DNA from: a virus
Strand: one strand, 5' to 3'
Length of the DNA: 57,467 nucleotides
IMG/VR virus record: IMGVR_UViG_3300033233_000045
Coordinates: 1-57,467 of that record
Position numbers and translations under genes: made by a program. The notes beneath the pieces are model-generated. The model searched no databases, was not told the DNA's origin, and was given only the letters and a program-made list of their open reading frames with translations. Below, in pieces: positions 4,471 through 57,467 of this stretch; position 1 is the stretch's first letter, and each line of letters starts with the position of its first letter.

Positions 4471-5299
<829 letters not shown>

Positions 5300-14407: not shown

Positions 14408-14893
14408 ATGGTTTCGGGTCCGAAACAACTGGAAATCGCGGAGCGGCGGCGCAAAGTCGGATCACTCTACCTGATGCGGTTCACGCAGGAGGAGATTGCA
14501 CGCCAGGTGGGCGTCACCCAGAAATGCATCTCGACAGACATCAAGGCGATTAAGGAGCAGTATAAGGCCGAGCGAGAGGAACTGATCGAGCGAGATCTGG
14601 CGGAACTGGAACAGATGGAACGCGACTGCGCGATGCAATTCGCGCAGACGAAGGACCGGGAATGGATCAGCGAGCGCCGGGAAATCAAGAAGCGCCGGTC
14701 GCAAATGATCGGGCTGGACGCCCCGGTGAAGACGGACAACCGAAACGAGAACCGGGGAGAGATCGTGCTGCGCTATGAAAACGACTGGCGCGGTCGCGGA
14801 ACCGAACCGGACGAGACGGGAGATCGTGCTGCCGTATCCCCATCCGGGGCAGCAGAAGGTGATCCGAGGGAGGAGACGCCACAACCGGATTAG
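14408..14893 (+). CDS. Terminase small subunit
   Basis: A 161-residue protein. Residues 15-55 carry a helix-turn-helix (YLMRFTQEEIARQVGVTQ, then CISTDIKAIKEQYKAER), followed by a long charged helix with the ERDxAEL pattern and an acidic tail. This is the usual layout of small terminase subunits, which recognise the packaging site and form rings. Its last 40 codons overlap the large subunit by 119 bases in another frame, an unusually long overlap. The overlap contains a short duplicated stretch around GAGATCGTGCTGC (near 14760 and 14820). Confidence 0.75.
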   Translation: MVSGPKQLEIAERRRKVGSLYLMRFTQEEIARQVGVTQKCISTDIKAIKEQYKAEREELIERDLAELEQMERDCAMQFAQTKDREWISERREIKKRRSQMIGLDAPVKTDNRNENRGEIVLRYENDWRGRGTEPDETGDRAAVSPSGAAEGDPREETPQPD

Positions 14894-16076
14894 CGCGGGG
14901 AGACGGTGGCGGAAGACGACACTGGGGATGAGCGTGGCCATCCAAGGGGCCGCGCGCGCGCAGCAGTGGCTGTGGGGCGCGCCGACCTATGACCAGGTGC
15001 GGATCGCCTGGGACGAGACCCGGCGTGCGGCCTTGGGTGTGGCGACGTTCCTCAAGGCGGAAATGCTCGTGACGTTTCCCGGCGGCGGCGTGATCCGGTT
15101 CCGATCACTCGACGATCCGGACAACGCCCGCGGATGGACGGCCGACGGGGTAGTGATCGACGAGGCGGCCGACGTGCCCGAGGCGGCGTGGCACGAGGTG
15201 CTTCGGCCGATGCTCCTCGACACCGGCGGCGAATCGTGGACGCTTGGTACCCCCAAAGGGCGCAACTGGTACTGGCGCGAGTGCGTGGCGGCGGCGGATG
15301 ATCCGGACGCCGTGTTCTGGAACGCGCCGACGCTCGGGGCGCGGGTGACGGAACAGGGACTTCTGCGCGCCCCTCATCCGCTGGAGAACCCGAACGTTCC
15401 GTGGTCCGAGATCGAGTCCCTATTCCGAACGCTGCCCGAGCGGGTGTTCCGACAGGAGATCCTGGCGGAATTTGTCGGCGACGAAGGTTCGGTGTTTATC
15501 GGCGTTCGCGCCGCCGTGGACCGGGGCCGCACCGCGAACGAGGATCCGGTCGCGGGCCGACGCTATTTCCTGGGCGTGGACCTCGCCCGGGTCGCCGACT
15601 TCACGGTGCTCTCGGTGATGGACCTGAGCCACAGGCAGGTTTATCTGGAGCGGTTCAACCAGATTTCCTGGGAGCGGCAGATCGAGCGGATCGTCGCGGT
15701 CTCGGCGCGTTACAACGGCGCGATGATCATGCTCGATTCCACCGGCGTGGGCGATCCGATCTTCGAGGCGCTGCGGGCACGCGGCCTGAAGGTCGAGGGG
15801 TTTCGGTTCACTAACGAGAGCAAAGAGCGCCTGATCGACGCGTTGGCGATGGGGATCGAGAGCGGCGGCGTCCGGCTGCTCGACCAGGAGACGCAAACGA
15901 ACGAGTTGCTGGCCTACCAATACTCGCTCTCGCCGTCGCGGAACATCCGCACGGGTGCGCCGCCGGGACTACATGACGACACGGTGATGGCGCTCGCGCT
16001 CGCGGACTGGGGCGTGGCCCACCCCGGCGGGTGGTGGCAGGACGCGGGCCTGATGGACTGGCTGAAAAGCCGATGA
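14775..16076 (+). CDS. Terminase large subunit
   Basis: A 433-residue packaging motor and nuclease. The N-terminal ATPase has an adenine/P-loop region HNRISAGRRWRKTTLG (residues 36-51), Walker B VVIDE (126-130) and a coupling-motif region around LGTPKGRN. The C-terminal RNase H-like nuclease has acidic residues D269 (FLGVDLA), D321 (IMLDSTG) and DD in GLHDDTVMALALA near residue 400. It translocates DNA into the prohead and cuts it. In the P-loop an arginine (R46, codon 14910-14912) replaces the usual glycine before the lysine. It overlaps the small subunit by 119 bases; the start could be later, but must precede the P-loop. Confidence 0.95.
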   Translation: MKTTGAVAEPNRTRREIVLPYPHPGQQKVIRGRRRHNRISAGRRWRKTTLGMSVAIQGAARAQQWLWGAPTYDQVRIAWDETRRAALGVATFLKAEMLVTFPGGGVIRFRSLDDPDNARGWTADGVVIDEAADVPEAAWHEVLRPMLLDTGGESWTLGTPKGRNWYWRECVAAADDPDAVFWNAPTLGARVTEQGLLRAPHPLENPNVPWSEIESLFRTLPERVFRQEILAEFVGDEGSVFIGVRAAVDRGRTANEDPVAGRRYFLGVDLARVADFTVLSVMDLSHRQVYLERFNQISWERQIERIVAVSARYNGAMIMLDSTGVGDPIFEALRARGLKVEGFRFTNESKERLIDALAMGIESGGVRLLDQETQTNELLAYQYSLSPSRNIRTGAPPGLHDDTVMALALADWGVAHPGGWWQDAGLMDWLKSR

Positions 16077-16084
16077 GGAGACAG

Positions 16085-16261
16085 ATGGGACTGGCTCATG
16101 ACTTTTGGCGGTCGAAGACGACGTGGACGGGCGTTTTGGCGCTCGTCGCCGCCGCGGCGGGCTATCTCACCGGGGAACTTTCCACGGCGCAGGCGGTCGC
16201 GGCGGCCTTCGCGGCGATCCAATCGGTTTGGCTTCGCGACGCCGTGCGGAAGAGCTTCTAG
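16085..16261 (+). CDS. Small membrane protein next to terminase
   Basis: A 58-residue protein: an N-terminal tryptophan-containing helix (AHDFWRSKTTWTG), an alanine-rich membrane segment (VLALVAAAAGYLTGE) and a second alanine-rich helix ending WLRDAVRKSF. Phages often carry a protein of this form beside terminase or portal genes, sometimes called holin-like. The ATG at 16085 was chosen because GAGGAGACAG lies directly before it. No lysis function can be shown. Confidence 0.6.
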   Translation: MGLAHDFWRSKTTWTGVLALVAAAAGYLTGELSTAQAVAAAFAAIQSVWLRDAVRKSF

Positions 16262-16269
16262 GAGGCGGG

Positions 16270-16521
16270 ATGGCGTCGATAATCGAGGGGAATCCATTGC
16301 CGTACAAAGCGCCATGGGCCGCGCCGGCCATCGGTCGGATCGTGCATGTCATAACGGATGTGGCGCTCCTGCCCGGCATCGTGGTAGGGGTGCGCTCCCC
16401 GCTCGATCCAGCTTCGGCGCTGGACATCGCGCTCTTTGGCCCGGAATATCGGTTCGTGCAGAATGTCCCTTGTCGCGCCGATCCGGCGGTGGAGTTGGGA
16501 TGGGAGTGGCCGCCGCGATGA
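16270..16521 (+). CDS. Hypothetical protein
   Basis: An 83-residue protein without recognised domains; it starts MASIIEGNPLP and ends GWEWPPR. The composition suggests a small beta protein with several prolines (PWAAPAIGRIVHVITDVALLP). It has a strong ribosome site (GGAGGCGGG before ATG) and overlaps the portal start by ATGA (16518-16521), so it is expressed with the head genes. Function unknown. Confidence 0.6.
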   Translation: MASIIEGNPLPYKAPWAAPAIGRIVHVITDVALLPGIVVGVRSPLDPASALDIALFGPEYRFVQNVPCRADPAVELGWEWPPR

Positions 16522-18320
16522 GATTTCCCTGGCAGCGGGAACAGATCGACGTGGAGGCGCTGGTGAGCCGCGTGGCGGGCGAGGCGGCGTCGCGCGCGGT
16601 GGCCGAGGCGCACGCCGAGATCCGGGAGACGCGCGTCCGGGTCGCCGAACTCTCGGACGTGCTGCGCGCGAACGGCGACGGGATGATGCCCATTCCGCCG
16701 ACGGGAAACCTCGCCGCGTCGCCGTATCCGATCTATGCACGCGACCAGCCGTTCCGCTACATGGTCCCCCAGGCGCCCTACCGCAAGCCGGAGAGTCCCG
16801 TCACGGTGGACATGCTCCGGTCGCTCGCGGAGAGTTTCGACATCTTGCGTGCGTGTATCAGCCATCTCCAGCGCGAGCTGGTCAACGTCCCCATCCAGAT
16901 CGTCCCGAAAGACGACGCCGACCAGAGCGACGAGACGCAGGCCCGCGTCCGCGCGGCCACGGAATGGTTCGAGGAAGACGGCGGCGTGGGTGGGCTGGGC
17001 ATGCGTCGCGGCCTTTTCGAGGCACAGGTCGTCGAGGACCTGGAGGTCGTCGGCGCGGCGGCGCTCTACTTCTCGCCCACGCGCGGCGGCGGCGTCTACG
17101 AGGTGCTCGCGATAGACGCGGCAACGATCCGCCCCCACGTGGACGCCTACGGCTGGCCCGGACCCGGCGAGGATGTCTACGAGCAGTGGATCTATGGCGT
17201 CAAGGTCGCCGGATTCACGCGCGAAGAGCTGCTCTACGACGGCATCCACGCCCGGACGTGGACGCCCTATTTCGCCTCCCCCGTGGAATGGCTCGTCGCC
17301 CGCATCCTGACGGCGCTCAAAGTGGACGAGTGGGACCGGACGTGGCTCACGGACGGGGCGATGCCCTCGGACATGATCGCGCTCCCCGACGGATGGACGC
17401 CTGCCCAAGTGCGCGAGTACGCCGAATGGTTCGTCTCGCTCCTGCGCGGCGACAGCCGCGCGCGGCAGCAACCGAAGTTCGTCCCCTCCGGAACGAGCAC
17501 GATTAAAAACGCCACTCGCAAGGACCACGACTTCGCCGAATTCAAGAACTGGTTGGTGAGTTGCACGTGCGCCGTTATGGGCGTCCATCGGGCGAGCATC
17601 GGGTTCGAGGGGGAGCAGTATAAGGTCAGCCAGGAGAACTCGATGGCGGCGACCTCCGAGTTCGGCGTCTCCGCGCTCCTGGAGTTCCGCCGCTCGCTCT
17701 ACAATCGCATTTTACGCCGGTTGGGCTATACTGAGTTGGAGTGCCGCAATGTGACGGCCGAGGAGGAGGAGGCCGGAACACGGGCGACCCGGAACGCGGC
17801 GCTGGTCATGAGCGGGATCAAGACGCCGAACGAGGCGCGGGCCGACGAGGGACTGGACGCGATGCCCGGCGGCGAGATGCTGTTCATCCCCGCCACGCTC
17901 GTGCCCCTCGACCAGGCGCTCGCGCCGCCCGCGCCGCCGCCGGTTGGTGGGACTTCTCCGGAATTTCCGGACAACTCGAACGTGTCGAATTCCTCGAACA
18001 GTTTCGAGAGTTCAGATGAATCGCGCCGCGCTGCCCTCTCCCTGTGGGAGAAAAAGGCGGTCGCGCGGCTGAATCGCGGCGAACCGGCCCAGGTCAACTT
18101 CCGCCACTGGGCGATTGACGAGGAGGAGCGGAATCGCGTGCGCGACGGATTGGACGCCTGCCGTACGCCCGCCGACGTGCGGGCGCTTTTTGCGACGATC
18201 CTCCTGGAGATGCCACCGGTCTACCACACGACGGTCGAGCAGCACGAGCGGCAACGGATTGCCCGCGCGTGGCGGGATCGGCGGATCGCGGCGGAACGGG
18301 AGGAGGCCGCGGTGTCATGA
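16518..18320 (+). CDS. Portal protein (HK97-like)
   Basis: A 600-residue protein that follows terminase, the usual place for the portal. Residues 1-60 are a charged coiled coil. The central part has the portal pattern: FDILRACISHLQREL, VEDLEVVGAAALYFSP, the long helix region WLVARILTALKVDEW, and the C-terminal clip GIKTPNEARADEGLDAMPGG, shared by many HK97-type portals. A low-complexity segment (about residues 475-510, rich in N and S) separates an extra helical tail. It forms the dodecameric ring for DNA entry. The start overlaps the previous stop (ATGA) and the end overlaps the next gene. Confidence 0.9.
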   Translation: MRFPWQREQIDVEALVSRVAGEAASRAVAEAHAEIRETRVRVAELSDVLRANGDGMMPIPPTGNLAASPYPIYARDQPFRYMVPQAPYRKPESPVTVDMLRSLAESFDILRACISHLQRELVNVPIQIVPKDDADQSDETQARVRAATEWFEEDGGVGGLGMRRGLFEAQVVEDLEVVGAAALYFSPTRGGGVYEVLAIDAATIRPHVDAYGWPGPGEDVYEQWIYGVKVAGFTREELLYDGIHARTWTPYFASPVEWLVARILTALKVDEWDRTWLTDGAMPSDMIALPDGWTPAQVREYAEWFVSLLRGDSRARQQPKFVPSGTSTIKNATRKDHDFAEFKNWLVSCTCAVMGVHRASIGFEGEQYKVSQENSMAATSEFGVSALLEFRRSLYNRILRRLGYTELECRNVTAEEEEAGTRATRNAALVMSGIKTPNEARADEGLDAMPGGEMLFIPATLVPLDQALAPPAPPPVGGTSPEFPDNSNVSNSSNSFESSDESRRAALSLWEKKAVARLNRGEPAQVNFRHWAIDEEERNRVRDGLDACRTPADVRALFATILLEMPPVYHTTVEQHERQRIARAWRDRRIAAEREEAAVS

Positions 18321-23493: not shown

Positions 23494-24243
23494 ATGGCAG
23501 ACCTTTCCGCGTTTCGCGGTGGACTGATCGACGAGTGTTTCACGAAGAACGTCGCCGGCGGCGTGGATGTGACGCTGGCAGTCAGGGGAGAGGCGGACCG
23601 GTCCTGCCTCATCTTCACCGGCGCGCTCACAGCGTCGATCGCCGTCATCTTCCCAGCCACCGCGGAATCGGCCGGCCTTGTCTGGCAGATCGAGAACCAG
23701 ACCACGGGCGCGTTCCTACTGTCGGTCAAGAACTCAGGCGGAACGGCGCTCGTCATCCCGGCGGGTGTGCGCTCCTTTGTCCTGTGGACGGGGACGGCGT
23801 TCGTGTTCGCCAGCAGCCAGATTCAGATGTCGGAGATCATCCTCACGTCGGCGCAGGTCAAGGCGCTTCGCGCGACGCCCATTACGATCTTCGGGGCTCC
23901 GGGCGCCGGGAAGTTGCTGGAGTTTCTTTCCGCACAATTGATTCTCGACTACGGCGGCACGAACGGCTTCACCGAAGCCGGGAACAACCTCGCGGTGCGG
24001 TTCGTGGACGGAACGGGCGTGATCGTTTCCCAGGCTATCGAGATGACCGGATTCATCGATCAAACGGCGGACACGGCCACGACCGCGCAGCCGAAGATCG
24101 ACGTGATCGCGGCGAAAGCGGCCTGCGAGAATGTGCCGCTTGTGCTCCACAACACGTCGGGCGCCGAAATCGCCGGGAACGCGGCGAACGACAACATCGT
24201 CCGGGTGAAGACGTGCTGCCGCGTCCACGCCACGGGATGGTAG
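23494..24243 (+). CDS. Virion protein: fibre module fused to capsid-decoration-like domain
   Basis: A 249-residue protein of two domains. Residues 1-105 are the beta-sandwich module found in several proteins of this genome (MADLSAFRG start, LIFTGALTASIAVIFPA, ENQTTGAFLLSVKNSGGT). Residues 110-249 match a domain common in phage head decoration or minor structural proteins: ILTSAQVKALRATPI, GAGKLLEFLSAQLILDYGG, FIDQTADTATTAQPKID and LVLHNTSGAEI. Joining a fibre-type module to a decoration domain would display an adhesin on the capsid. Inference rests on gene position and pattern. Confidence 0.65.
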   Translation: MADLSAFRGGLIDECFTKNVAGGVDVTLAVRGEADRSCLIFTGALTASIAVIFPATAESAGLVWQIENQTTGAFLLSVKNSGGTALVIPAGVRSFVLWTGTAFVFASSQIQMSEIILTSAQVKALRATPITIFGAPGAGKLLEFLSAQLILDYGGTNGFTEAGNNLAVRFVDGTGVIVSQAIEMTGFIDQTADTATTAQPKIDVIAAKAACENVPLVLHNTSGAEIAGNAANDNIVRVKTCCRVHATGW

Positions 24244-36762: not shown

Positions 36763-37380
36763 ATGGGTGGAGTGATCAGCACGGGTCTGGTGCGGGGGAG
36801 CCGGCTCGCCAAAAGCGTCGCGGGCGCCGCGAACGTCACCCTCACTGCCGATGAGGCGCAGAACCGGGTGCTGGAGTTCACCGGAGCGCTCACCGGCAGC
36901 ATCAGCGTGGGCGTCCCCGACGCCGTGGCGACTGCCGGGGCCGAATGGCTCGTGTTCAACAACACGACCGGGCTGTTCACCCTCACGGCCAAGACCGTAA
37001 GCGGAACAGGAATCGTCGTCGCCCAGGGGCGCAAGGCGATCCTCTACTCGGACGGAACGAACCTGGTCACGGGGGTGGCTCAGGACGAGGGACGGTCCAC
37101 GGTCAACATGGCGAGCGACGCCGACATCACGCTCACGGCGGCGCAGGCGGCGGCAGGGATCATCGAGATCACCTCGACCGTGCTCACCGCCACCCGGAAC
37201 GTGATCCTGCCCACCTCCGACGGGCGGGTGTGGATCGTCCACAACAACACTTCGACGACGCCGCAATCGCTCGTGTTCAAGACGAGCGCGGGGACGGGCG
37301 TCACCGTGGCGGCGGCGGCGCGCCGGGCGCTTATCTACTGTGACGGCACAAACATCGTGGCCGCCGCCACGGCGATCTAG
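36763..37380 (+). CDS. Fibre protein with two tandem beta-sandwich modules
   Basis: A 205-residue protein made of two copies of the module found in other virion proteins of this genome. Copy 1 (residues 10-105) has NVTLTADEAQNRVLEFTGAL, then NNTTGLFTLTAKTVSGTGI and a DGTNLV end. Copy 2 (110-205) has DITLTAAQAAAGIIEITST, NNTSTTPQSLVFKTSAGTG and a DGTNIV end. Modules of this kind occur in phage tail fibres. The protein consists of almost nothing else, so it may polymerise into, or decorate, a fibre. Confidence 0.65.
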   Translation: MGGVISTGLVRGSRLAKSVAGAANVTLTADEAQNRVLEFTGALTGSISVGVPDAVATAGAEWLVFNNTTGLFTLTAKTVSGTGIVVAQGRKAILYSDGTNLVTGVAQDEGRSTVNMASDADITLTAAQAAAGIIEITSTVLTATRNVILPTSDGRVWIVHNNTSTTPQSLVFKTSAGTGVTVAAAARRALIYCDGTNIVAAATAI

Positions 37381-40372: not shown

Positions 40373-42025
40373 ATGGCCGGCGGCGTTTATCGCATCGGGC
40401 CGCCGCCCCAGCAGCGGCGACACGGAAACACCCCGCTCTTCGGGTCGACGCAATCGCTGCTTGCCCCCGCGGTAACGGCTCTCTTCGTCATCACCGCGCC
40501 GACACTCACGAGCGGCGCGGTCTCCGTGGCCGCACCCGCGGTGACGGCCCGGTTCGTCGTCACCGCGCCGACGCTTACTTCCGGGGCGGCCGTGGTCGCG
40601 GGGACCGCGACCACGGCGCGGTTTGCCGTCACCGCACCCACGCTCTCCACTGCCGCGTCGCTCGGGGTCCCCGCGACCACGGCGCGCTTCACCGTCACGG
40701 CCCCGACGCTTACTTCCGGGGCGGTCTCCGTGGCCGCGCCCGCCACAACGGCGCGGTTCGTCGTCACGGCCCCATCGCTTACGAGCGGCGCGGTTTCCAT
40801 CGCGATCCCGGCCACGACCGCCCGGTTCGCGGTCACGGCTCCCACGCTCACAAGTGGCGCGGTCTCCGTGGCCGCGCCCGCGACCACGGCGCGGTTTGCC
40901 GTCACGGCCCCGACGCCCACGGCAGGCGCACTTTCCGTGACGGCTCCGGCAATCACGGCTCGGTTCATCGCCACCGCCCCGGCGTGCCTGTGCAACGTGC
41001 AACTCCCGGCCGTGACGGCGCGATTCGTCGTGACCGCGCCCACGCGTTCGACGACGCTCCTGCTCGCCGCGCCCGCGACGACGGCGCGGTTTGCCGTCAC
41101 GGCCCCGACGCTCACGGTCGGGACAGCTTCCGTGGCGGTCCCGGCCACGACGGGGCGGTTCGCCACATTTGAACCCATTCTGCGGCAATCGCTTTCCGCG
41201 CCCGCGGTGACGGCCCGGTTCGTCGTCACGGCCCCGACGCTCACGAGCGGCGCGGTTTCCGTGACGGCTCCGGCCACGACCGCCCGGTTCGCGGCCACGG
41301 CGCCCGCGCGGACGGCGACGGTCTCCCTGACGGCCCCGGCGGCGACTACCGCCCGGTTCGCGGCGACCGCGCCGGCCGTAACCCAGACGACGCCAAACAT
41401 CGCGGCCCCGGCGGTGACCGCCCGGTTCCTGGTGACCGCGCCGACGCTCACGACTACCGTTTCGGTCGCGGTTCCCGCGGCGACGGCGCGGTTCGTCGTC
41501 GGGACGCACACAATTCCCCAGGGGCAACTCTTCTTCGCGCCTCAGGCGATGGCGCGGTTTGTGGTCACGGCGCCCGCGACGACGGCAGGGGCGGCGTCGG
41601 CCACGTTGTCCGCCGCGGCCGCGCGGTTTGTCGTGACGCCGCCCTCCGTGGTGCGGCATCTGTCACTGCCGGCGGTCATCGCCCGGTTCACGGTCACGCC
41701 GCCCACGCCCGCGGCGGCGACATCCGTGGCAGGCGGCGTCACGACGGCGCGGTTCACGGTCACGGCGCCCACGATCGCGGCGGGAGCGATCGGCCGGAAC
41801 TTCCCGGCGGTCACGGCCCGCCTGGTCACGGCAGGGGTAGGCCAATCCGTCATCCGTAATTTCTCGCTCCCGCGGTTGACCGCGCGGATACGCGTGATTG
41901 CGCCGCCGATTCTGTTCGCGGACGCGTTCAATTACAAGGGGACGTTGGATTGCACGGCGCTGGACTATGGTGGGGCATTCGTCGTCGTGGAGAATCTCCT
42001 GGGAGTGTTAATCTCGGATGGTTAG
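40373..42025 (+). CDS. Tail protein with 22 tandem 20-23 residue repeats
   Basis: A 550-residue protein built almost entirely of a repeat with consensus TARFAVTAPTLTSGAVSVAA. Twenty-two copies can be counted (residues about 30-530). They are near-identical in the first third and increasingly degenerate toward the C-terminus. Each likely forms a short beta rung, so the protein may be a fibrous or beta-solenoid stalk. The last 40 residues (NYKGTLDCTALDYGGAFVVV) form a separate end that may cap it. It overlaps the next gene by eight bases. The antisense strand is also open because of the repeat, but that is an artefact. Confidence 0.7.
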   Translation: MAGGVYRIGPPPQQRRHGNTPLFGSTQSLLAPAVTALFVITAPTLTSGAVSVAAPAVTARFVVTAPTLTSGAAVVAGTATTARFAVTAPTLSTAASLGVPATTARFTVTAPTLTSGAVSVAAPATTARFVVTAPSLTSGAVSIAIPATTARFAVTAPTLTSGAVSVAAPATTARFAVTAPTPTAGALSVTAPAITARFIATAPACLCNVQLPAVTARFVVTAPTRSTTLLLAAPATTARFAVTAPTLTVGTASVAVPATTGRFATFEPILRQSLSAPAVTARFVVTAPTLTSGAVSVTAPATTARFAATAPARTATVSLTAPAATTARFAATAPAVTQTTPNIAAPAVTARFLVTAPTLTTTVSVAVPAATARFVVGTHTIPQGQLFFAPQAMARFVVTAPATTAGAASATLSAAAARFVVTPPSVVRHLSLPAVIARFTVTPPTPAAATSVAGGVTTARFTVTAPTIAAGAIGRNFPAVTARLVTAGVGQSVIRNFSLPRLTARIRVIAPPILFADAFNYKGTLDCTALDYGGAFVVVENLLGVLISDG

Positions 42026-42413: not shown

Positions 42414-44801
42414 ATGCCGAGCACCAGTGTCTTCCGTGGCCGCGATCAGGAGAGCTACGTCACCCGAAACGTGGCGGGGTCCGCCAACGTCACGCTCAGC
42501 ATTGACGACGCGCGCGGGAAGATCATTTCACTGACCGGCCTCCTGACCGGGAACATCAACGTCATCCTCCCCGTGGTGGCGGAAGACGCGGGCCTTGCCT
42601 GGATCGTTCGGAATCAGACGACCGGCGCATTCTCACTCACGGTCAAAACGGTGAGTGGGACCGGCATCGTGATTCCGCAGGGGTGTTCCTGCGGAATCTA
42701 CACCGACGGCGTGAACGTCCTCGATCTCACGGCCGGCGCATCGACCACGCTCATCAACAACACGGCTTCCGGCAACACGGCGCAGATATTCTCGCTCACC
42801 CACACCTACACCAACCCGGATTTCCCCGCTTCCTCCTCCAACCATCCCGACTACTCGGTTTTCGAGTTGATCCATCGCCAGTTCGCCGACACCGCGAACA
42901 TCGCCAACCCGTTCGATCTGATTTGGACGGGCATCCGCACGCACCTGCAATACGGTTCCGCAACGGTGCTCGCGCGCGGCAGCGAGCAGACGGTCACCGC
43001 CAGCGTGGACGTGCAGGGTTCCGCTTCTGGGGACAACGAACTGGCGACGTTCATGGGGTGGCAACGCGCGAAGGCCGCCAGCGGGACGCCCGCCGACGGC
43101 GTGGCGAGCATGTGGTTCTTCGACGGCAGCCTCCACGGGAATCTCGGCGCGCAGTCGGCGCTCCTGAACGGGATCACGATGCTCGTCAATAGTTACATGG
43201 CCGCGCAGCCCATCCGGGGACCCTCCTCGGCGGCGTGGTTCGTGACGCGCCCCGGAGGAGGCGCGGGAGGCGAGGACGGACACAATGTCGCCGACACGCA
43301 GACGCTCGACGCCCTAGTATCCATATTCGGGTTCGCGGGCGACGCGGCGCTGACGACGTTCCGCCGGGGCGCGACGGTCGGTCTCCAGATCGGCGAATGG
43401 GGCAGCGGCTGGAGCGTCGTCGCCGACGACGGCCGGAGCTGGTTCGGGCACGGCCTCTCTGTCCGCGGCGGCGAACTCTCTGGGATCCGCGTCCGCGATC
43501 CGCATCGGAACGCCTCGAACGCACTTGTCGGCTCGGCGATCCTGTTGGACACGGCGGACGCGGCCCTTTCCTGGCAATGGTGGCTCGACGCCGGGAGCGC
43601 CAACGCGCCGTTGACCGGGGCCATCCGCCTCCATGACGCCAACTCCACCACGGCGGGCCGGATCCAATGGGGATCGAGCGTCCACGCCCCCGCGATGTAT
43701 CGGAGCGCCGACGGGACGCTCACCGCGCGCCTGCCCGACGCCAGCACGGGAGCCAAGTTTCACGTCCATCGGACGGCGAACTCCGATCCGGCGTTCGAGG
43801 TGGGCGGCACGGACGCCGTGAACATCTTCCTCTCGACGATGATCCGAAACGACAGCGGGGCGCTCTCTCAATTCGTCGCGGGAACCGCGAACAATTTCTT
43901 CACGGGCAGCGCGGCCGGGGACGTGGGCCTACGCTGGGACGGCGACCAGGTGTTCGCCTGGGTGGGCGGCAGCGCGGTCGCGGGCGGGATCTCGGGAGCG
44001 GGGAAGTGGGGCGTGGGCGCGCTTCCCTCGACGGCCCGTTTCTACGTCCGGGACGACACGAACATCGAACTGGCGACGTTTGAGGGGAGGAACTTCTTCT
44101 CGTCGGTGTTCGTAAGGGTTGGCGATGCCGGCAGCTCGCCGTTGGCCGCGCTCCGAATCTACCCGGCGACACCGGCGGACGCGACGAACACGCTGGTGGA
44201 TACCGGCGGCGTGATCATGCGGGGATCGTTCTGGACGGGATCGGCCAGTTCCAACGTGGAAGCCTCGTGGAACCTGCTCATGATCTCGACGACGCCGACC
44301 TACGTGCTGACGGCGAAGGTCGGCGTCTCGAACCGCATGTGGATTGCCCAGGATGGGAAAACGACGATCGGCGACACCCAACAGACGACGGCGCTCGCGA
44401 ACGTGGCCGTGAACGATACCGCCACCACGACGGTCAGTCTCGTGCAGCAGTGGCATCACCTCTCCTCGGGGACGCCCGCGGCCGGGTTCGGCGGCGAGAC
44501 ACGGATGCAACTGGAGTCCTCGACGACGGACAACCGGGACGCCGCCGGTCTCATCTGGGAATGGGCGACGGCGGCCGACGCCACGCGGAAGGCGCGTGTC
44601 CGCTTTACCGTCTACGACACGGCCGTGCGGGAGGCAATGCGGATCGAGGCGGACGGCGCCGCGCCGATGATCGGTTTCCTCGGCGCGACGGCGATCGCCC
44701 GACCGAGCGTCACCGGATCGCGCGGCGGCAACGCCGCGCTGGCGTCGCTGCTGACGCAACTGGCGGCGCTCGGACTGATCACGGACAACACGACGGCTTA
44801 A
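42414..44801 (+). CDS. Tail fibre protein
   Basis: A 795-residue tail fibre. Residues 1-105 are the beta-sandwich module shared with other virion proteins here (NVTLSIDDARGKIISLTGLL, NQTTGAFSLTVKTVSGTGI). The middle has long beta-rich and glycine/serine-rich segments with fibre-like content. The C-terminus VTGSRGGNAALASLLTQLAA, followed by LGLITDNT, is a well-known end of phage tail fibres. Its size and position agree with a receptor-binding fibre. No enzymatic motif was seen. Confidence 0.75.
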   Translation: MPSTSVFRGRDQESYVTRNVAGSANVTLSIDDARGKIISLTGLLTGNINVILPVVAEDAGLAWIVRNQTTGAFSLTVKTVSGTGIVIPQGCSCGIYTDGVNVLDLTAGASTTLINNTASGNTAQIFSLTHTYTNPDFPASSSNHPDYSVFELIHRQFADTANIANPFDLIWTGIRTHLQYGSATVLARGSEQTVTASVDVQGSASGDNELATFMGWQRAKAASGTPADGVASMWFFDGSLHGNLGAQSALLNGITMLVNSYMAAQPIRGPSSAAWFVTRPGGGAGGEDGHNVADTQTLDALVSIFGFAGDAALTTFRRGATVGLQIGEWGSGWSVVADDGRSWFGHGLSVRGGELSGIRVRDPHRNASNALVGSAILLDTADAALSWQWWLDAGSANAPLTGAIRLHDANSTTAGRIQWGSSVHAPAMYRSADGTLTARLPDASTGAKFHVHRTANSDPAFEVGGTDAVNIFLSTMIRNDSGALSQFVAGTANNFFTGSAAGDVGLRWDGDQVFAWVGGSAVAGGISGAGKWGVGALPSTARFYVRDDTNIELATFEGRNFFSSVFVRVGDAGSSPLAALRIYPATPADATNTLVDTGGVIMRGSFWTGSASSNVEASWNLLMISTTPTYVLTAKVGVSNRMWIAQDGKTTIGDTQQTTALANVAVNDTATTTVSLVQQWHHLSSGTPAAGFGGETRMQLESSTTDNRDAAGLIWEWATAADATRKARVRFTVYDTAVREAMRIEADGAAPMIGFLGATAIARPSVTGSRGGNAALASLLTQLAALGLITDNTTA

Positions 44802-45020: not shown

Positions 45021-47756
45021 ATGTCCAGAACCCTTTTCGTATCTCCTTCCGGCAGCGACACCGCCGCGGGTTCCGAAACGGATCCGTGGCGGTCCATCGG
45101 CGCCGCCTGCGCCCGCGTACAACCGGGCGACACGCTTATTTTGCGCGCGGGGACTTATCCCGAAACGATCAACCCCAAGACGGGCGGGACGGGACCGGAT
45201 CAGCGGATCACATTCCGTGCGGCGGCAGGCGAGACCGTGATTCTCGACGGGGGAACGGGTCGGATGGTCGGCTGGGACGCCGAGGGCGGCGGCGTGTTTC
45301 GGCGTGTGTTCGTGGGACCGCTCACGGGCCTGTTCCAGGACGGGCCTGGGCGGGCGTGCGCACTCTGGAACATGGACTACAACCATTACGAGAGCAACCC
45401 GAACCTCACCCTGCACGACTACGATCCCACCCATGACGCCGTGCTGGATCATGGCGTGACGTGGAGGAAGCACGACCGGTTCAGCCAGTTCCAACTGAAG
45501 GGCGGCGTGCTGCGCGTGCAGACCGCCGACGGCCGAAGCCCGGACGAGCATGACGTGCGCGGGTCGGCAAAACGATACGCCATCGACCTCTCGGGCAAAC
45601 CATGGGTGTCCGTCGAGGGGATCACGTTCCGGTATTGGGAGACGTTCGGCTACGTCCAGAACAGCCCGTTCTTTCGTCTCGTGGACTGCCGGATGGAATA
45701 CGCGGGCGCCACGGGCGTGTGGCTGGTGGCGAGCGACAACTCGGAGATCATCGGCAACCGGATCATCGTCGCGGGCAGCCAGATCGGCCACTATGACGAC
45801 GGCTTCCACATGGCGTCCTGCGCCGGGTGCCGGATCGAGGGAAATGAGATCGCCTGGTGCGGACACGGCGGATTCTTTACGAAGCGCAGTCGGACGGCCA
45901 CGATCAAGGGCAACTACATTCATCATGCCGGCGGCACGGGCCTGAACCTGAACCTGGGCGCGACTGGGATGACCGTCACCGAAAACGTGATCGCCGTCTG
46001 CGGGGAGCGGGCGCAGACTTCCGTCCACAAATTCGGGCATGCCGGGATGCAACTGGTCGGGCCGACGAACACCCTGCGCCGCAATCTGATCTACCGCTGC
46101 GGCCAGGGCGTCGGGATGGGCTGCAATGATTCCGTGATCTGCAACGGAAACACGCTCGACCACAACACGGTCTCGGACTGCGAGGACATCGGCCTGGTGC
46201 TCGAAGGGTATCAGGCGTCGTTCTCCGGTCGGCTGAACGACAACCGGTTCACGGGGAATCTGATCGCGCGGTGCGGCACGCACGGGATCCGGCTCGACCT
46301 CCCCGGCGGAAAACAGAGCGGCTGGTGGGGCAACACGTTCCGCGACACGCTCGTCTCGGAAGCGAACGTCCATCTGTTCGACGATGGCGTCTACCCGCCA
46401 TTGGAGGCGCAGTGGCGGTGGCCGGTCGTGTTCGCGGGGACGTCGGACGCGCGACCGAGTTTCCGAAACAGTTCCCTCGGCGACTATCGACTGGCGGCCG
46501 GATCGCCCGGGTCGGGATTGGGAGCCGAGCTGGCCGCGCCCACCGACGATGGCATTCCACCTCCACCGCCGCCACCCCCACCGCCGCCTCCCCCACCGCC
46601 GCCGGTAGAGACCGATCCGCATGTCACGACAGTCATTCCGGCCGCGGGCATGGTGGGCGCTGAGATTGTCATACGCGGGACGAGGTTTGGCGGCGACTCG
46701 GGTGGGCTGGTGATCGGGAGACTGCGGCAGATTCTGCTTGAGTGGAAACCCGAGCAGGTCCGGGCGAGACTGAAACCCGAAACGCCCGTCGGAGCCACGA
46801 CGGTCTACGTCCGACGGGCCGCCGACGGAAAGCGGTCCAACGATGTGCCGTTCACTGTCACCGAGAACGCGCCGCCTCCCCCCCCGGCAGACGCACCCAT
46901 TCTCATTGACATAACACGCGTTACTGCCGACAGTTTCGATCAGGTGACGCACGGCGGTCCCTGGGTTCCCGGCTTCGCCGTGGACGCGCTGCCGCTCACC
47001 GCCTGGGTCTCCGATCCGGCGCTGCCGATGCCGCACTGGATCGAGATCCCGCTGCCGGGAACATTCCGCGTGGACCAACTGCGACTATCCCCGCATCGGT
47101 ATGACGTCCGAATTTATCAGATCGAGATCGAGAGCGCGCGGGGAACGGGACCATGGCGAAACGTCGGACTGGAAAGCGTCGCCACCATGAACGAGCCCTG
47201 GTCGCAGTTTTACTTCCCCGTCGTGGAGGCGGATCGGGTGCGGGTGCGGTTCCTCGGCAACAACGATCCGCGCCGCCCCCGGACGGCGGGTCTGCGGACG
47301 GTCGAGGTCTGGGGTGTGAAACTCTCCGACGAGACACCGCCGCCGCCGCCACCCCCACCGCCGCCTCCCCCACCGGACGAACTGGCGCAGCTACGTCGGG
47401 AGGTGTTTTATCTCACCAACACCGAACGCGCGAAGGCCGCGATCCCGGCGCTCGCGACGAACGATTTGCTCGACCGCGCTGCTCAAGGACACGCGGAGGA
47501 TATGGCGGCGCACGGCTATTTCAGTCACACGGGGGCGGACGGTTCCTCGCCGGCGGACCGGCTCCAGCGCGTCGGATATTTGGCGACAATTTGGGGCGAG
47601 AACATCGCCCGCGGCTATCCGACGCCCGCCTCGGTCGTCACTGCCTGGATGGAGAGTCCCGGCCACCGGGCGAATATCTTGAACGGGTCGTTCACGGATC
47701 TGGGGGTGGGGATCGCGGCCGGGCACTGGGTGCAGGATTTCGGACGCGCGCGGTGA
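45021..47756 (+). CDS. Multidomain surface protein A: beta-helix, IPT, F5/8-type, CAP
   Basis: A 911-residue mosaic. Residues 1-510 are a right-handed beta-helix (DTLILRAGTYPETI, then repeated GNxI-type rungs such as IIGNRIIV and IEGNEIAW). A poly-proline linker covers 513-528. Residues 532-615 are an IPT/TIG domain (VTTVIPAAGMVGAEIVIRG). A shorter proline run follows at 618-622. Residues 630-768 look like an F5/8C (discoidin) domain (MPHWIEIPL, VDQLRLSPHRYDVRIYQIEI). A third proline run (773-785) leads to a CAP/SCP domain (787-911) with H824, H836, E860 and H882 in GHAEDM, FSHTGAD, WGEN and SPGH. No signal peptide or membrane segment; probably on the virion. The C-terminal WVQDFGRAR recurs in protein B. 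Confidence 0.8.
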   Translation: MSRTLFVSPSGSDTAAGSETDPWRSIGAACARVQPGDTLILRAGTYPETINPKTGGTGPDQRITFRAAAGETVILDGGTGRMVGWDAEGGGVFRRVFVGPLTGLFQDGPGRACALWNMDYNHYESNPNLTLHDYDPTHDAVLDHGVTWRKHDRFSQFQLKGGVLRVQTADGRSPDEHDVRGSAKRYAIDLSGKPWVSVEGITFRYWETFGYVQNSPFFRLVDCRMEYAGATGVWLVASDNSEIIGNRIIVAGSQIGHYDDGFHMASCAGCRIEGNEIAWCGHGGFFTKRSRTATIKGNYIHHAGGTGLNLNLGATGMTVTENVIAVCGERAQTSVHKFGHAGMQLVGPTNTLRRNLIYRCGQGVGMGCNDSVICNGNTLDHNTVSDCEDIGLVLEGYQASFSGRLNDNRFTGNLIARCGTHGIRLDLPGGKQSGWWGNTFRDTLVSEANVHLFDDGVYPPLEAQWRWPVVFAGTSDARPSFRNSSLGDYRLAAGSPGSGLGAELAAPTDDGIPPPPPPPPPPPPPPPPVETDPHVTTVIPAAGMVGAEIVIRGTRFGGDSGGLVIGRLRQILLEWKPEQVRARLKPETPVGATTVYVRRAADGKRSNDVPFTVTENAPPPPPADAPILIDITRVTADSFDQVTHGGPWVPGFAVDALPLTAWVSDPALPMPHWIEIPLPGTFRVDQLRLSPHRYDVRIYQIEIESARGTGPWRNVGLESVATMNEPWSQFYFPVVEADRVRVRFLGNNDPRRPRTAGLRTVEVWGVKLSDETPPPPPPPPPPPPPDELAQLRREVFYLTNTERAKAAIPALATNDLLDRAAQGHAEDMAAHGYFSHTGADGSSPADRLQRVGYLATIWGENIARGYPTPASVVTAWMESPGHRANILNGSFTDLGVGIAAGHWVQDFGRAR

Positions 47757-47789
47757 ACTTGTTCCCGACCGACGCCAACTCCTTAACCT

Positions 47790-47820
47790 GGGCGCGGCGT
47801 TCCTGTCGCGTCCCCTTTTT
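47790..47820 (+). terminator. Hairpin plus T5 between surface proteins A and B
   Basis: GGGCGCG (47790-47796) pairs with CGCG-T-CCC (47807-47814, one bulge), followed by TTTTT (47816-47820). It lies in the 77-base gap before the next gene. A perfect version of the same hairpin stands before gene C at 49081, so the intergenic element was duplicated with the genes. Confidence 0.7.
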
Positions 47821-47833
47821 CGCGGGACGACGA

Positions 47834-49021
47834 ATGAGGGCAATCAGACCGAAATTGAAACTGATCTCCGTGACGCCATCTTCCGTGGAGGGCGGAGAGT
47901 CCGCCACCGGGACGGTGCAACTAGACCGCGCGGCGGGAACAGGCGGCGCGGCCGTGACACTGGGGAGCGAAGATCCCGGCGTGGCGACGGTTCCCGCGAC
48001 GGCAAAAGTTCCGGCAGGAAGCGTCTCCGTGAATTTTTCCGTCACGACGATTGCCGTCCCCTCTCCCGTGAATGTGCGACTGGCCGCGTGCCGCGACGGA
48101 TCAACCCGCATCACGGCGCTGTCCGTGCAGTCTCCCACCCCTCCCCCTCCTCCTCCACCGCCGCCGCCGCCGCCGCCCACGGGAGGGACACTCTCCGCCG
48201 TGCCGCTTGTCCTTGCCAATCGCCGCGTTTCCGCCGACAGCGCGGACACGATCACCATCGGTGGACCATGGGGCCCGGGAAACGTCATCGACGGGCTCCC
48301 TCAAACGGAGTGGGTGAGCGGCGTCGGCGCTCCGATGCCCCACTGGTTGGCAATCGGGATCCCCGAACTCGTCCCGATCTGCAAGGTTCGACTGTCTCCC
48401 GGCTGTTATGAATCACGCGGCTATCGGTTGAAACTGGAGGTGCAGACGGCGAATCGCTCGTGGTCGTCTGTCGCGGAGACTTCGACGGTTGCCGGTCAGG
48501 CATGGTGGGAGGCGTCATTTCCGACCATCCCGGCATACGCGATCAGGATAACGTTCCTCTCCTCCACGGACGACGCCCGTCCGAACGTCGCCCGCCTACG
48601 CAGCGTGGAGATGTGGACCGTCTCGGACGCCGCGCCGCCGGATGAACTGCGTGTCGTGCAGGCGAAACTGCTCCAGTTGACCAACGCGGAACGCACCCGA
48701 TTTGGGTTGCCGTTGCTCGTCGCGAACGAGCGATTGAACGGGGCGGCGCAGGCCCACGCGGAGGACATGCACGCGAAACAGGATCTCAACCACACAGGGT
48801 ACGACGGCTCCTCTCCCGCCGACAGAATCCGTCACACGGGATATGCGGCAGTCGCGTGGGGAGAAAACATCGCCGAGGAAATATTCACGGCCGAATCGGT
48901 TATAACCGCGTGGATCGCCAATCCCGGCTATCACGCGAACATTCGGAACAGCACCTTTCTCGAACTGGGCGTCGGAATGAAATCCGGCTACTGGGTGCAG
49001 GATTTCGGACGGGCGAGATAG
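47834..49021 (+). CDS. Multidomain surface protein B: Ig-like, F5/8-type, CAP
   Basis: A 395-residue mosaic. Residues 5-100 are a bacterial Ig-like domain (LISVTPSSVEGGESATGTV, then GSEDPGVATVPA and AKVPAGSVSVNF), a type frequent in high-GC bacteria. A poly-proline linker covers about 103-117. Residues 120-260 align with the F5/8-type domain of protein A (GGPWGPGNVIDGLP, MPHWLAIGI, CKVRLSPGCYESRGYRLKLE). Residues 270-395 are a CAP domain (AQAHAEDM, LNHTGYDGSSPADR, WGENIAEE, NPGYHANI) that ends GYWVQDFGRAR. In the last CAP motif a tyrosine replaces the first histidine of SPGH. The ATG at 47834 was chosen; an upstream TTG is possible. Confidence 0.75.
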   Translation: MRAIRPKLKLISVTPSSVEGGESATGTVQLDRAAGTGGAAVTLGSEDPGVATVPATAKVPAGSVSVNFSVTTIAVPSPVNVRLAACRDGSTRITALSVQSPTPPPPPPPPPPPPPTGGTLSAVPLVLANRRVSADSADTITIGGPWGPGNVIDGLPQTEWVSGVGAPMPHWLAIGIPELVPICKVRLSPGCYESRGYRLKLEVQTANRSWSSVAETSTVAGQAWWEASFPTIPAYAIRITFLSSTDDARPNVARLRSVEMWTVSDAAPPDELRVVQAKLLQLTNAERTRFGLPLLVANERLNGAAQAHAEDMHAKQDLNHTGYDGSSPADRIRHTGYAAVAWGENIAEEIFTAESVITAWIANPGYHANIRNSTFLELGVGMKSGYWVQDFGRAR

Positions 49022-49080
49022 GCGTTTCCCGCGTCCATGGTGAACTGTTCAGGGACCATTGCTGCCTCCTTTTGTCAACT

Positions 49081-49111
49081 CGGGCGCGGCGTCCTGCCGC
49101 GCCCGCTTTTT
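49081..49111 (+). terminator. Perfect hairpin plus T5 between surface proteins B and C
   Basis: CGGGCGCGG (49081-49089) pairs with CCGCGCCCG (49097-49105) around a seven-base loop and is followed by CTTTTT. It is the better-preserved twin of the element at 47790-47820. Positions 49022-49123 contain no gene. Confidence 0.85.
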
Positions 49112-49123
49112 GGAGCGGAGATC

Positions 49124-50632
49124 ATGCCCATCAAGCCGAAACTTACTGCCCTTTCGGTCATGCCCTCTTCCGTCGAAGGAGAGCGACCCGCCACGGGCAC
49201 GGTGCAACTGGACCGAATGGCAGGCGCGGGCGGCGTCACGGTGAATCTGGGCAGCGAAGAACCCGGCGTCTGCGCCGTGCCCTCTGCCGTGAAGGTTCCG
49301 GCGGGCAGCGCGGCCGTCAACTTCCAGGTCAACACGGCGGACGTTCCCGGTCCCGTGGCCGCGCGTCTCGTCGCGTGCGCCGGCGGCATCGGGCGCGTGA
49401 CCTCGCTCAGTGTGCGTCCGAAGCAGCCGCCTCCTCCTCCTCCTCCTCCTCCCCCCCCGCCGCCGCCGCCCACGGGGGGGATATTCTCAACCGACGAGCG
49501 GGTGGTGACGCTGTCCACACGCGCGGGTATGCGGAGTTTCGTGCGGCCGGTGATCTTCCCGATTCCGTCGCCCGCGGGCGGAATCACACGGCACGTGGCG
49601 AAAACGGGGAACGACGGCAACGACGGTTCCGCCGAACGGCCGCTTGCGAGCGTGAACCAGGCGCTCGCGCGGACGTTGCCGGGAGACGCGATCGTGGTGC
49701 ATGCGGGCGTCTACGAGGAAACGCTCGTCATCAACAAGTCGGGAGCGCCGGAAAGGCCGATTATCATGAGTTGCGCGCCGGGCGCGTTGGGCAAGGCCAA
49801 GATCACTCCCCCCGCCGCATTCGTCCGCGCGAATCCCGGCCGGGGAGTGATCGAGATCGGCAACGGGGCGCAACAAGTCTGGATCAACGGGCTCGTGATC
49901 GAGGGACCGATGGGCCGTCCGGAAGCGCCCGCGAACGACGACTTCGGCGCCAACGGGATCACTTTCCAGAATGGGGCGGGACTGGGCTGCCGCGTCACGA
50001 ACTGCGTGGTCTATCACAACATGCACTGCGGCATCAAGGAGATGGGACATGACGGCTCCGGGTTCCTGGTCCGGGGCAACATCGTGTTCGAGAACGGGAC
50101 CGACACCCTCGATCACGGGATCTACTGTCCGGCGAACGACGTGGAGATCGATGGAAACATCTTCCTCAATAACGCGGGGTGGGGCATCCACGCCTACAGC
50201 GCTCCGCAACGGGCGACGATCACCCGGAATCTCTGCGTGGGAAACTGGGGAGGAATCATCCTCGCGGGGGCTTTCGGTCGGGTGTATCACAACACCGTGG
50301 CCGACAACCCAAACGTGGGCCTGATGTATTTCCGCGATGGGTGTACGGACAATCAGGTCATGAACAACATTTTCGCGGGGGAGAGCGCCGTCGCATGGGA
50401 CAACGGCGGCGGAACGCTCGGGAATCCGGCGCGGAACATCTCCGATTACAACTGTGTATTTCCCGTCCGCGTGCCCTCCCAGGTTCCGCCGGGCGCGCAC
50501 GAACTGTATGCCGATCCGTTGTTTCGTTCCCCGGCGGGCGGCGATTATCGGCTCGAGACAGGGAGTGGTTGTGTGGGCACAGCCGGCCCCATCGGCGCGC
50601 CATATCAGTCGGCGGACCGCGGAGCGTTTTGA
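49124..50632 (+). CDS. Multidomain surface protein C: Ig-like plus beta-helix
   Basis: A 502-residue mosaic. Residues 3-100 are the same Ig-like domain as in protein B (LTALSVMPSSVEGERPATG, VKVPAGSAAVNF). A poly-proline linker covers about 102-117. Residues 150-500 are a right-handed beta-helix akin to that in protein A (RHVAKTGNDGNDGSAERPLA, DAIVVHAGVYEETLVIN, then rungs such as VEIDGNIFLNNAGWGIHA). No CAP or F5/8 part is present. It has GGAG before its ATG and is the last rightward gene. With A and B it forms a set that reuses the same four domain types in different orders. Confidence 0.8.
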   Translation: MPIKPKLTALSVMPSSVEGERPATGTVQLDRMAGAGGVTVNLGSEEPGVCAVPSAVKVPAGSAAVNFQVNTADVPGPVAARLVACAGGIGRVTSLSVRPKQPPPPPPPPPPPPPPPTGGIFSTDERVVTLSTRAGMRSFVRPVIFPIPSPAGGITRHVAKTGNDGNDGSAERPLASVNQALARTLPGDAIVVHAGVYEETLVINKSGAPERPIIMSCAPGALGKAKITPPAAFVRANPGRGVIEIGNGAQQVWINGLVIEGPMGRPEAPANDDFGANGITFQNGAGLGCRVTNCVVYHNMHCGIKEMGHDGSGFLVRGNIVFENGTDTLDHGIYCPANDVEIDGNIFLNNAGWGIHAYSAPQRATITRNLCVGNWGGIILAGAFGRVYHNTVADNPNVGLMYFRDGCTDNQVMNNIFAGESAVAWDNGGGTLGNPARNISDYNCVFPVRVPSQVPPGAHELYADPLFRSPAGGDYRLETGSGCVGTAGPIGAPYQSADRGAF

Positions 50633-57340: not shown

Positions 57341-57467
57341 CGGTCTAATCGAGACGGGAGGAACAAATCGCATTTTCCGTGGACTGATGGATTCTTGGAC
57401 TCCGGTCTAATCGAGACGGGAGGAACAAATCGCATTTTCCGTGGACTGATGGATTCTTGGACTCCGG
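57341..57467. repeat. 127-bp end overlap with positions 1-127
   Basis: The last 127 bases are identical to the first 127, covering two full 62-bp units plus three bases. A terminal overlap of exactly 127 bases is the expected product of assembling a circle with k-mer 127. The unit genome is therefore 57,340 bp and this stretch should be counted once. Confidence 0.9.

Follow-up and report, generated by a model that had tools for sequence, protein, structure and literature searches.

Three tandem phage proteins built from old, reused domains and poly-proline linkers: candidate tail adhesins

The last three genes of a phage late operon, here called A, B and C, encode proteins that are mosaics of reused domains, and our best guess is that they are adhesins of the virion tail. 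We base this guess on the lack of an apparent signal peptide or membrane helix, on the position in the tail operon and on the types of module present. The full reading, to which we give a probability of roughly 60%, is that A, B and C are mosaic, glycan-directed, virion-associated tail adhesins that arose by an old duplication and domain replacement, in a phage whose host is probably a member of the Armatimonadota, a bacterial phylum that has been little studied.

The window analyzed is the whole of the IMG/VR virus record IMGVR_UViG_3300033233_000045 (57,467 bases). Positions 1–127 and 57341–57467 are identical, each consisting of about two tandem copies of 62 bases, and probably represent a circular assembly or a terminal repeat. 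On the + strand, a run of late genes begins with terminase and passes through the genes for portal, capsid, minor tail and tail fibre before it finishes with C at 50632; the next genes lie on the opposite strand. A, B and C come last in this run, behind the tail fibre gene and a gene of 67 residues; they sit with the tail genes in the late operon, as a tail fibre or receptor-binding locus would. A DNA search of phage records gave a single match, of 90 bases, and searches for tRNAs and Rfam families gave no match. The features of the operon and the locus are:

14775–16076, + strand: terminase, first in the late-gene run
16098–18320, + strand: portal, in the late-gene run
42414–44801, + strand: tail fibre gene, 795 aa, upstream of A; matches phrog_12796 (tail fiber protein) at 3.4e-12
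45021–47756, + strand: gene A, 911 aa; beta-helix, weak IPT/TIG, CBM32-like F5/8 and CAP
46557–46604, + strand: linker A1, 16 prolines; 95% identical to linker A2 over 41 bp
46872–46886, + strand: short linker, 5 prolines, separating the TIG-like and F5/8 regions of A
46896–47321, + strand: F5/8 (CBM32-like) domain of A
47337–47375, + strand: linker A2, 13 prolines
47376–47756, + strand: CAP domain of A; H836, E860 and H882 conserved
47790–47813, + strand: terminator-like hairpin before B
47834–49021, + strand: gene B, 395 aa; Ig-like, F5/8 and CAP
47834–48139, + strand: Ig-like domain of B; relatives in Armatimonadota ORFs
48140–48178, + strand: linker B, 13 prolines
48203–48625, + strand: F5/8 (CBM32-like) domain of B; Pfam F5_F8 at 4.5e-7
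48641–49018, + strand: CAP domain of B; Tyr in place of a near-invariant His
49081–49105, + strand: terminator-like hairpin before C, 11 pairs
49124–50632, + strand: gene C, 502 aa; Ig-like, 15-proline linker (49427–49471) and beta-helix

The original prediction named three neighbouring genes linked by poly-proline runs, and we did find three adjacent + strand genes with in-frame proline runs (16 and 13 in A, 13 in B and 15 in C). For A it proposed a beta-helix, an IPT, an F5/8 and a CAP domain, and Pfam gave Beta_helix at 1.4e-25, DUF1565 at 1.6e-7, TIG at 0.04, F5_F8 at 1.4e-4 and CAP at 5.4e-20. The beta-helix (PF13229, 90.2 bits, cut-off 25.9) and CAP (PF00188, 72.8 bits, cut-off 21.1) are clear. 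The F5/8 domain scores 22.5 bits against the PF00754 cut-off of 28.2, yet it is 40% identical to the copy in B, which scores 30.5 bits. The IPT/TIG domain (residues 533–612) fell away, with 14.3 bits (E 0.04) against a PF01833 cut-off of 20.9. In B the proposed F5/8 and CAP (53.2 bits, cut-off 21.1) domains were both recovered by Pfam, and the N-terminal Ig-like domain is paralogous to that of C. C was likewise confirmed as Ig-like plus beta-helix (Pfam NosD at 2.5e-10 and Beta_helix at 3.9e-10; PF13229, 40.0 bits, cut-off 25.9), and F5/8 and CAP are absent from it. We moved its start from 49037 to about 49124, because its N-terminus aligns with B from there and a GGAG lies just upstream. Pfam has no match for the N-terminal 100 residues of either B or C. 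Modelled from two sequences, its own and that of B, the C domain was all-beta with eight strands and a mean pLDDT of 87, a compact all-beta sandwich with relatives in bacterial repeats, as in bacterial Ig-like domains. Its fold matches include BIG2-domain phage proteins at a TM of about 0.44–0.56, and those in the PDB were unspecific. A single-sequence model of B reached a pLDDT of 35.

The F5/8 domains of A and B resemble CBM32 modules. Their profile matched the solved glucanase/chitosanase modules 2rva and 4zz5 at 3e-6, and its matches, which include NagJ and hyaluronidase modules, ranged from 3e-6 to 6e-3. We take these chitosanase/glucanase and hyaluronidase modules to be of the CBM32 type, and since the profile matches them, sugar binding is the natural guess for the phage domains. 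Unlike the chitosanase and NagJ modules that the profile matches, the phage copies stand after a proline linker and before a CAP domain. Neither the matches listed for 291 Armatimonadota genomes nor the phage records searched contained such a CBM32-like/CAP fusion; modular tail fibres and phage CAP domains are already known.

As tail adhesins encoded at the end of the tail operon, A, B and C would sit in the virion. Stiff poly-proline rods would space apart module types familiar from bacterial surface proteins (CBM32-like sugar binding, CAP, beta-helix and Ig-like), and these may grip the cell wall or surface glycan, or act on it, ahead of the main receptor step. The locus suggests that the phage uses module kinds found in its host's own proteins. 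We found no described tail adhesin of an Armatimonadota phage in the literature searched, and the locus offers three testable proteins, both for sugar binding and for what CAP domains do in phages. Pfam, PHROG and NCBIfam gave no match to a tail-anchoring domain in A or B, and none was recognized in C beyond a weak tail-fibre match (8e-5, 50 residues at the start of the beta-helix). Tail anchors are often too diverged to detect. Hydropathy showed no apparent signal peptide, hydrophobic N-terminus or membrane segment in any of the three proteins. Sec-secreted proteins of the host surface were rejected as a candidate, as A–C have no signal-like N-terminus.

Among the closest known systems are two with modular tail proteins. 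The passages describing gp99 and gp101 of the Caulobacter phage phiCbK report virion tail proteins with F5/8-type and Ig-like domains and, unlike A–C, speak of no CAP domain, poly-proline linkers or module-sharing tandem paralogues (PMC3556154). Extracellular contractile injection systems, which are not phages, have tail fibres of swapped Ig-like and other binding modules, and gene duplication in multi-fibre operons (PMC12923769); their baseplate anchors are defined, whereas none was recognized in A–C.

The main rival to virion adhesins, possible though on the whole unlikely, is that A–C are soluble products released at lysis, or morons, and not virion parts; beta-helix enzymes could, for example, loosen polysaccharide while the CAP domains act on the cell wall. 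The absence of a recognized tail anchor is in keeping with this, as is the start of the A beta-helix, which resembles the solved xylosidase 3vst and pectate lyase 1ru4. CAP domains, which had been called unusual for a phage, are uncommon but known, from Bacillus phages Stills, Slash and Staley, from Butyrivibrio phages and as PHROG family 16914, which PHROG classes as morons. The Stills protein was described as a secreted LysM/CAP protein, and its role was called unknown at genome publication (PMC4541274). Against this rival, A–C show no apparent secretion signal, unlike the description of the Stills protein, and they lie directly after tail fibre genes on the same strand. The LysM/YkwD-like proteins of Stills, Slash and Staley have CAP domains 33–44% identical to those of A and B, whose CAP domains are instead fused to a CBM32-like module and encoded in a tail operon.

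Domain reuse was evident from alignments between the three genes. Judged by sequence, true paralogues are found in the Ig-like domains of B and C (score 297, shuffle maximum 61; 62% protein identity), the F5/8 domains of A and B (score 293, shuffle maximum 47; 40%) and the CAP domains of A and B (score 361, shuffle maximum 55; 54%). The beta-helices of A and C are related only loosely, with a score of 101 against a shuffle maximum of 66 that comes mainly from a short generic N-terminal stretch (36% over 67 aa). Homology between B and C runs from the hairpin leader through the Ig-like domain and the linker to a TGG and then ends; beyond the linker the score is 15, against a shuffle mean of 19. 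That between A and B begins within about 15 residues past the linkers. The alignments thus outline two overlapping blocks, leader–Ig–linker in B and C and F5/8–CAP in A and B. Homology breaks off and resumes at the poly-proline linkers, so the mosaic is real, and the proposed domain shuffling between tandem genes is supported, with breakpoints at or within about 10–15 residues of the linkers. It probably arose when genes that had duplicated in tandem long ago had domains replaced at the linkers, which would have given the F5/8–CAP tail of A and B and the leader-plus-Ig head of B and C.

The original prediction went further and suggested that the exchange looks recent, with the proline-coding repeats as recombination points. 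Recent or ongoing shuffling that builds a combinatorial adhesin repertoire seems improbable to us. Blocks do break at the linkers, the two linkers of A share 11 identical codons and the leaders of B and C are homologous. However, the shared domains are only 40–62% identical, and codons at identical residues are shared about as often as chance predicts (16 observed and 21.1 expected for F5/8, 36 and 29.6 for CAP, and 31 and 24.5 for Ig). Since codons at conserved residues are near random and protein identity is this low, "recent" is unsupported, and the reuse of domains looks real but old. The linkers A1 and A2 are the only pair alike beyond chance, a likeness that none of 5,000 shuffles reached and that is explained by slippage, duplication or conversion inside A; the pairs A–B, A–C and B–C are no closer in DNA than shuffled codons. 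Recombination at the linkers would fit the block borders, but the sequences retain no trace of such an event, and this part of the prediction stays unproven. No relative with a different domain order turned up, and in the one relative whose fibre region could be read the genes at this site are unrelated. Very doubtful, too, is the stronger proposal that proline-coding repeats serve as recombination sites at which tandem tail adhesins continually exchange glycan-binding and CAP modules without a dedicated recombinase; if true, such continual reshuffling would make this a combinatorial host-range locus. As regards programmed diversification by a shufflon or DGR, a repeat search of the A–C locus revealed no long inverted repeats of high identity. 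The ending WVQDFGRAR, noted as common to A and B, was rejected as a sign of recent exchange: CAP domains normally finish in WVQ[DN]FG, and WVQDFG occurs family-wide, which leaves the closing RAR as the one part peculiar to A and B.

As had been noted, the A–B and B–C gaps carry the same kind of terminator-like hairpin, and the leaders of B and C that contain it are homologous (score 54, shuffle maximum 35). About 20 bases separate the end of each hairpin from the B or C start codon, and before C a GGAG-like site follows the T run. The hairpins belong to the duplicated unit. Terminator-like sites between 40 and 57 kb are not above expectation (9 found, 10.2 expected from shuffles); among them, the hairpins before B and C have the longest stems.

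The two CAP copies have diverged unequally. A tree of 61 CAP domains pairs the A and B copies as sisters (support 99/89), with branch lengths of 0.28 for A and 0.83 for B. At the position of H882 in A, 47 of 48 bacterial or viral CAPs have His and the remaining one has a gap; B has Tyr. The equivalents of H836 and E860 are kept in B. These His and Glu positions are presumably those of the known tetrad of the CAP cavity. Because of the long branch and the Tyr for His in B, one CAP copy looks relaxed or redirected.

Two Armatimonadota genomes carry the portals and capsids found to be closest: G396, on an 18 kb contig (G396:C236; portal 47%, capsid 47%), and G888, on a 140 kb contig (G888:C5; portal 40%, capsid 49%); the bacterial search for the head module covered the Armatimonadota, and "closest" holds within that phylum. 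Portals of known phages are just 21–27% identical. On the second contig the related region, with head and tail modules, spans about 66–93 kb and is probably a prophage, as its flanks read like ordinary bacterial genes. The two contigs possibly represent an undescribed phage lineage of Armatimonadota. Among four phyla compared, the Ig-like domain was commonest in Armatimonadota (74 of 201 genomes, 37%, often in tandem) and occurred in 3–13% of genomes elsewhere (7 of 251 Chloroflexota, 8 of 199 Planctomycetota and 26 of 199 Acidobacteriota). The phage thus probably infects Armatimonadota, a host that is likely rather than proven because the head module was searched in this phylum only.

A separate gain of each gene from surface-protein genes of the host, with the likeness stemming from common donor families and not from duplication in the phage, is highly improbable: Armatimonadota often carry Ig-like and CAP relatives and third-position G+C in A–C is slightly below that of most late genes, but the CAP domains of A and B group as sisters, apart from the other 59, no bacterial match among those listed in the 291 genomes spans F5/8 and CAP, and B and C also share an untranslated leader.

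Receptor-binding sites are usually variable, and the surroundings of A–C give a hint of this. The G888 prophage keeps the gene order from portal to minor tail region, then carries three unrelated genes and has no homologue of A, B or C; on the strength of this one readable relative, the A–C site may be variable. No tail half could be located for the G396 phage; G396 also has contigs that bear CAP and beta-helix domains. Scans of IMG/VR with peptide patterns, whose short and strict form makes them weak evidence of absence, gave no relative of A, B, C, portal or capsid, and one distant CAP contig. As no relative carrying A, B or C was found, function cannot be read from conservation.

Repeats and reused modules occur elsewhere in the window. 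Three separate genes (23494–24243, 36763–37380 and 42414–44801) match the same stretch of phrog_12796, a further sign of module reuse in this phage. Directly upstream of the tail fibre gene, 40373–42025 encodes a 550-residue protein of ∼23-residue repeats (TARFVVTAPTLTSGAVSVAAPA) with a 69-base period, perhaps a fibre shaft. At 4554–4965 lies a G-rich + strand repeat, which would read as long proline runs on the − strand and as glycine on the + strand.
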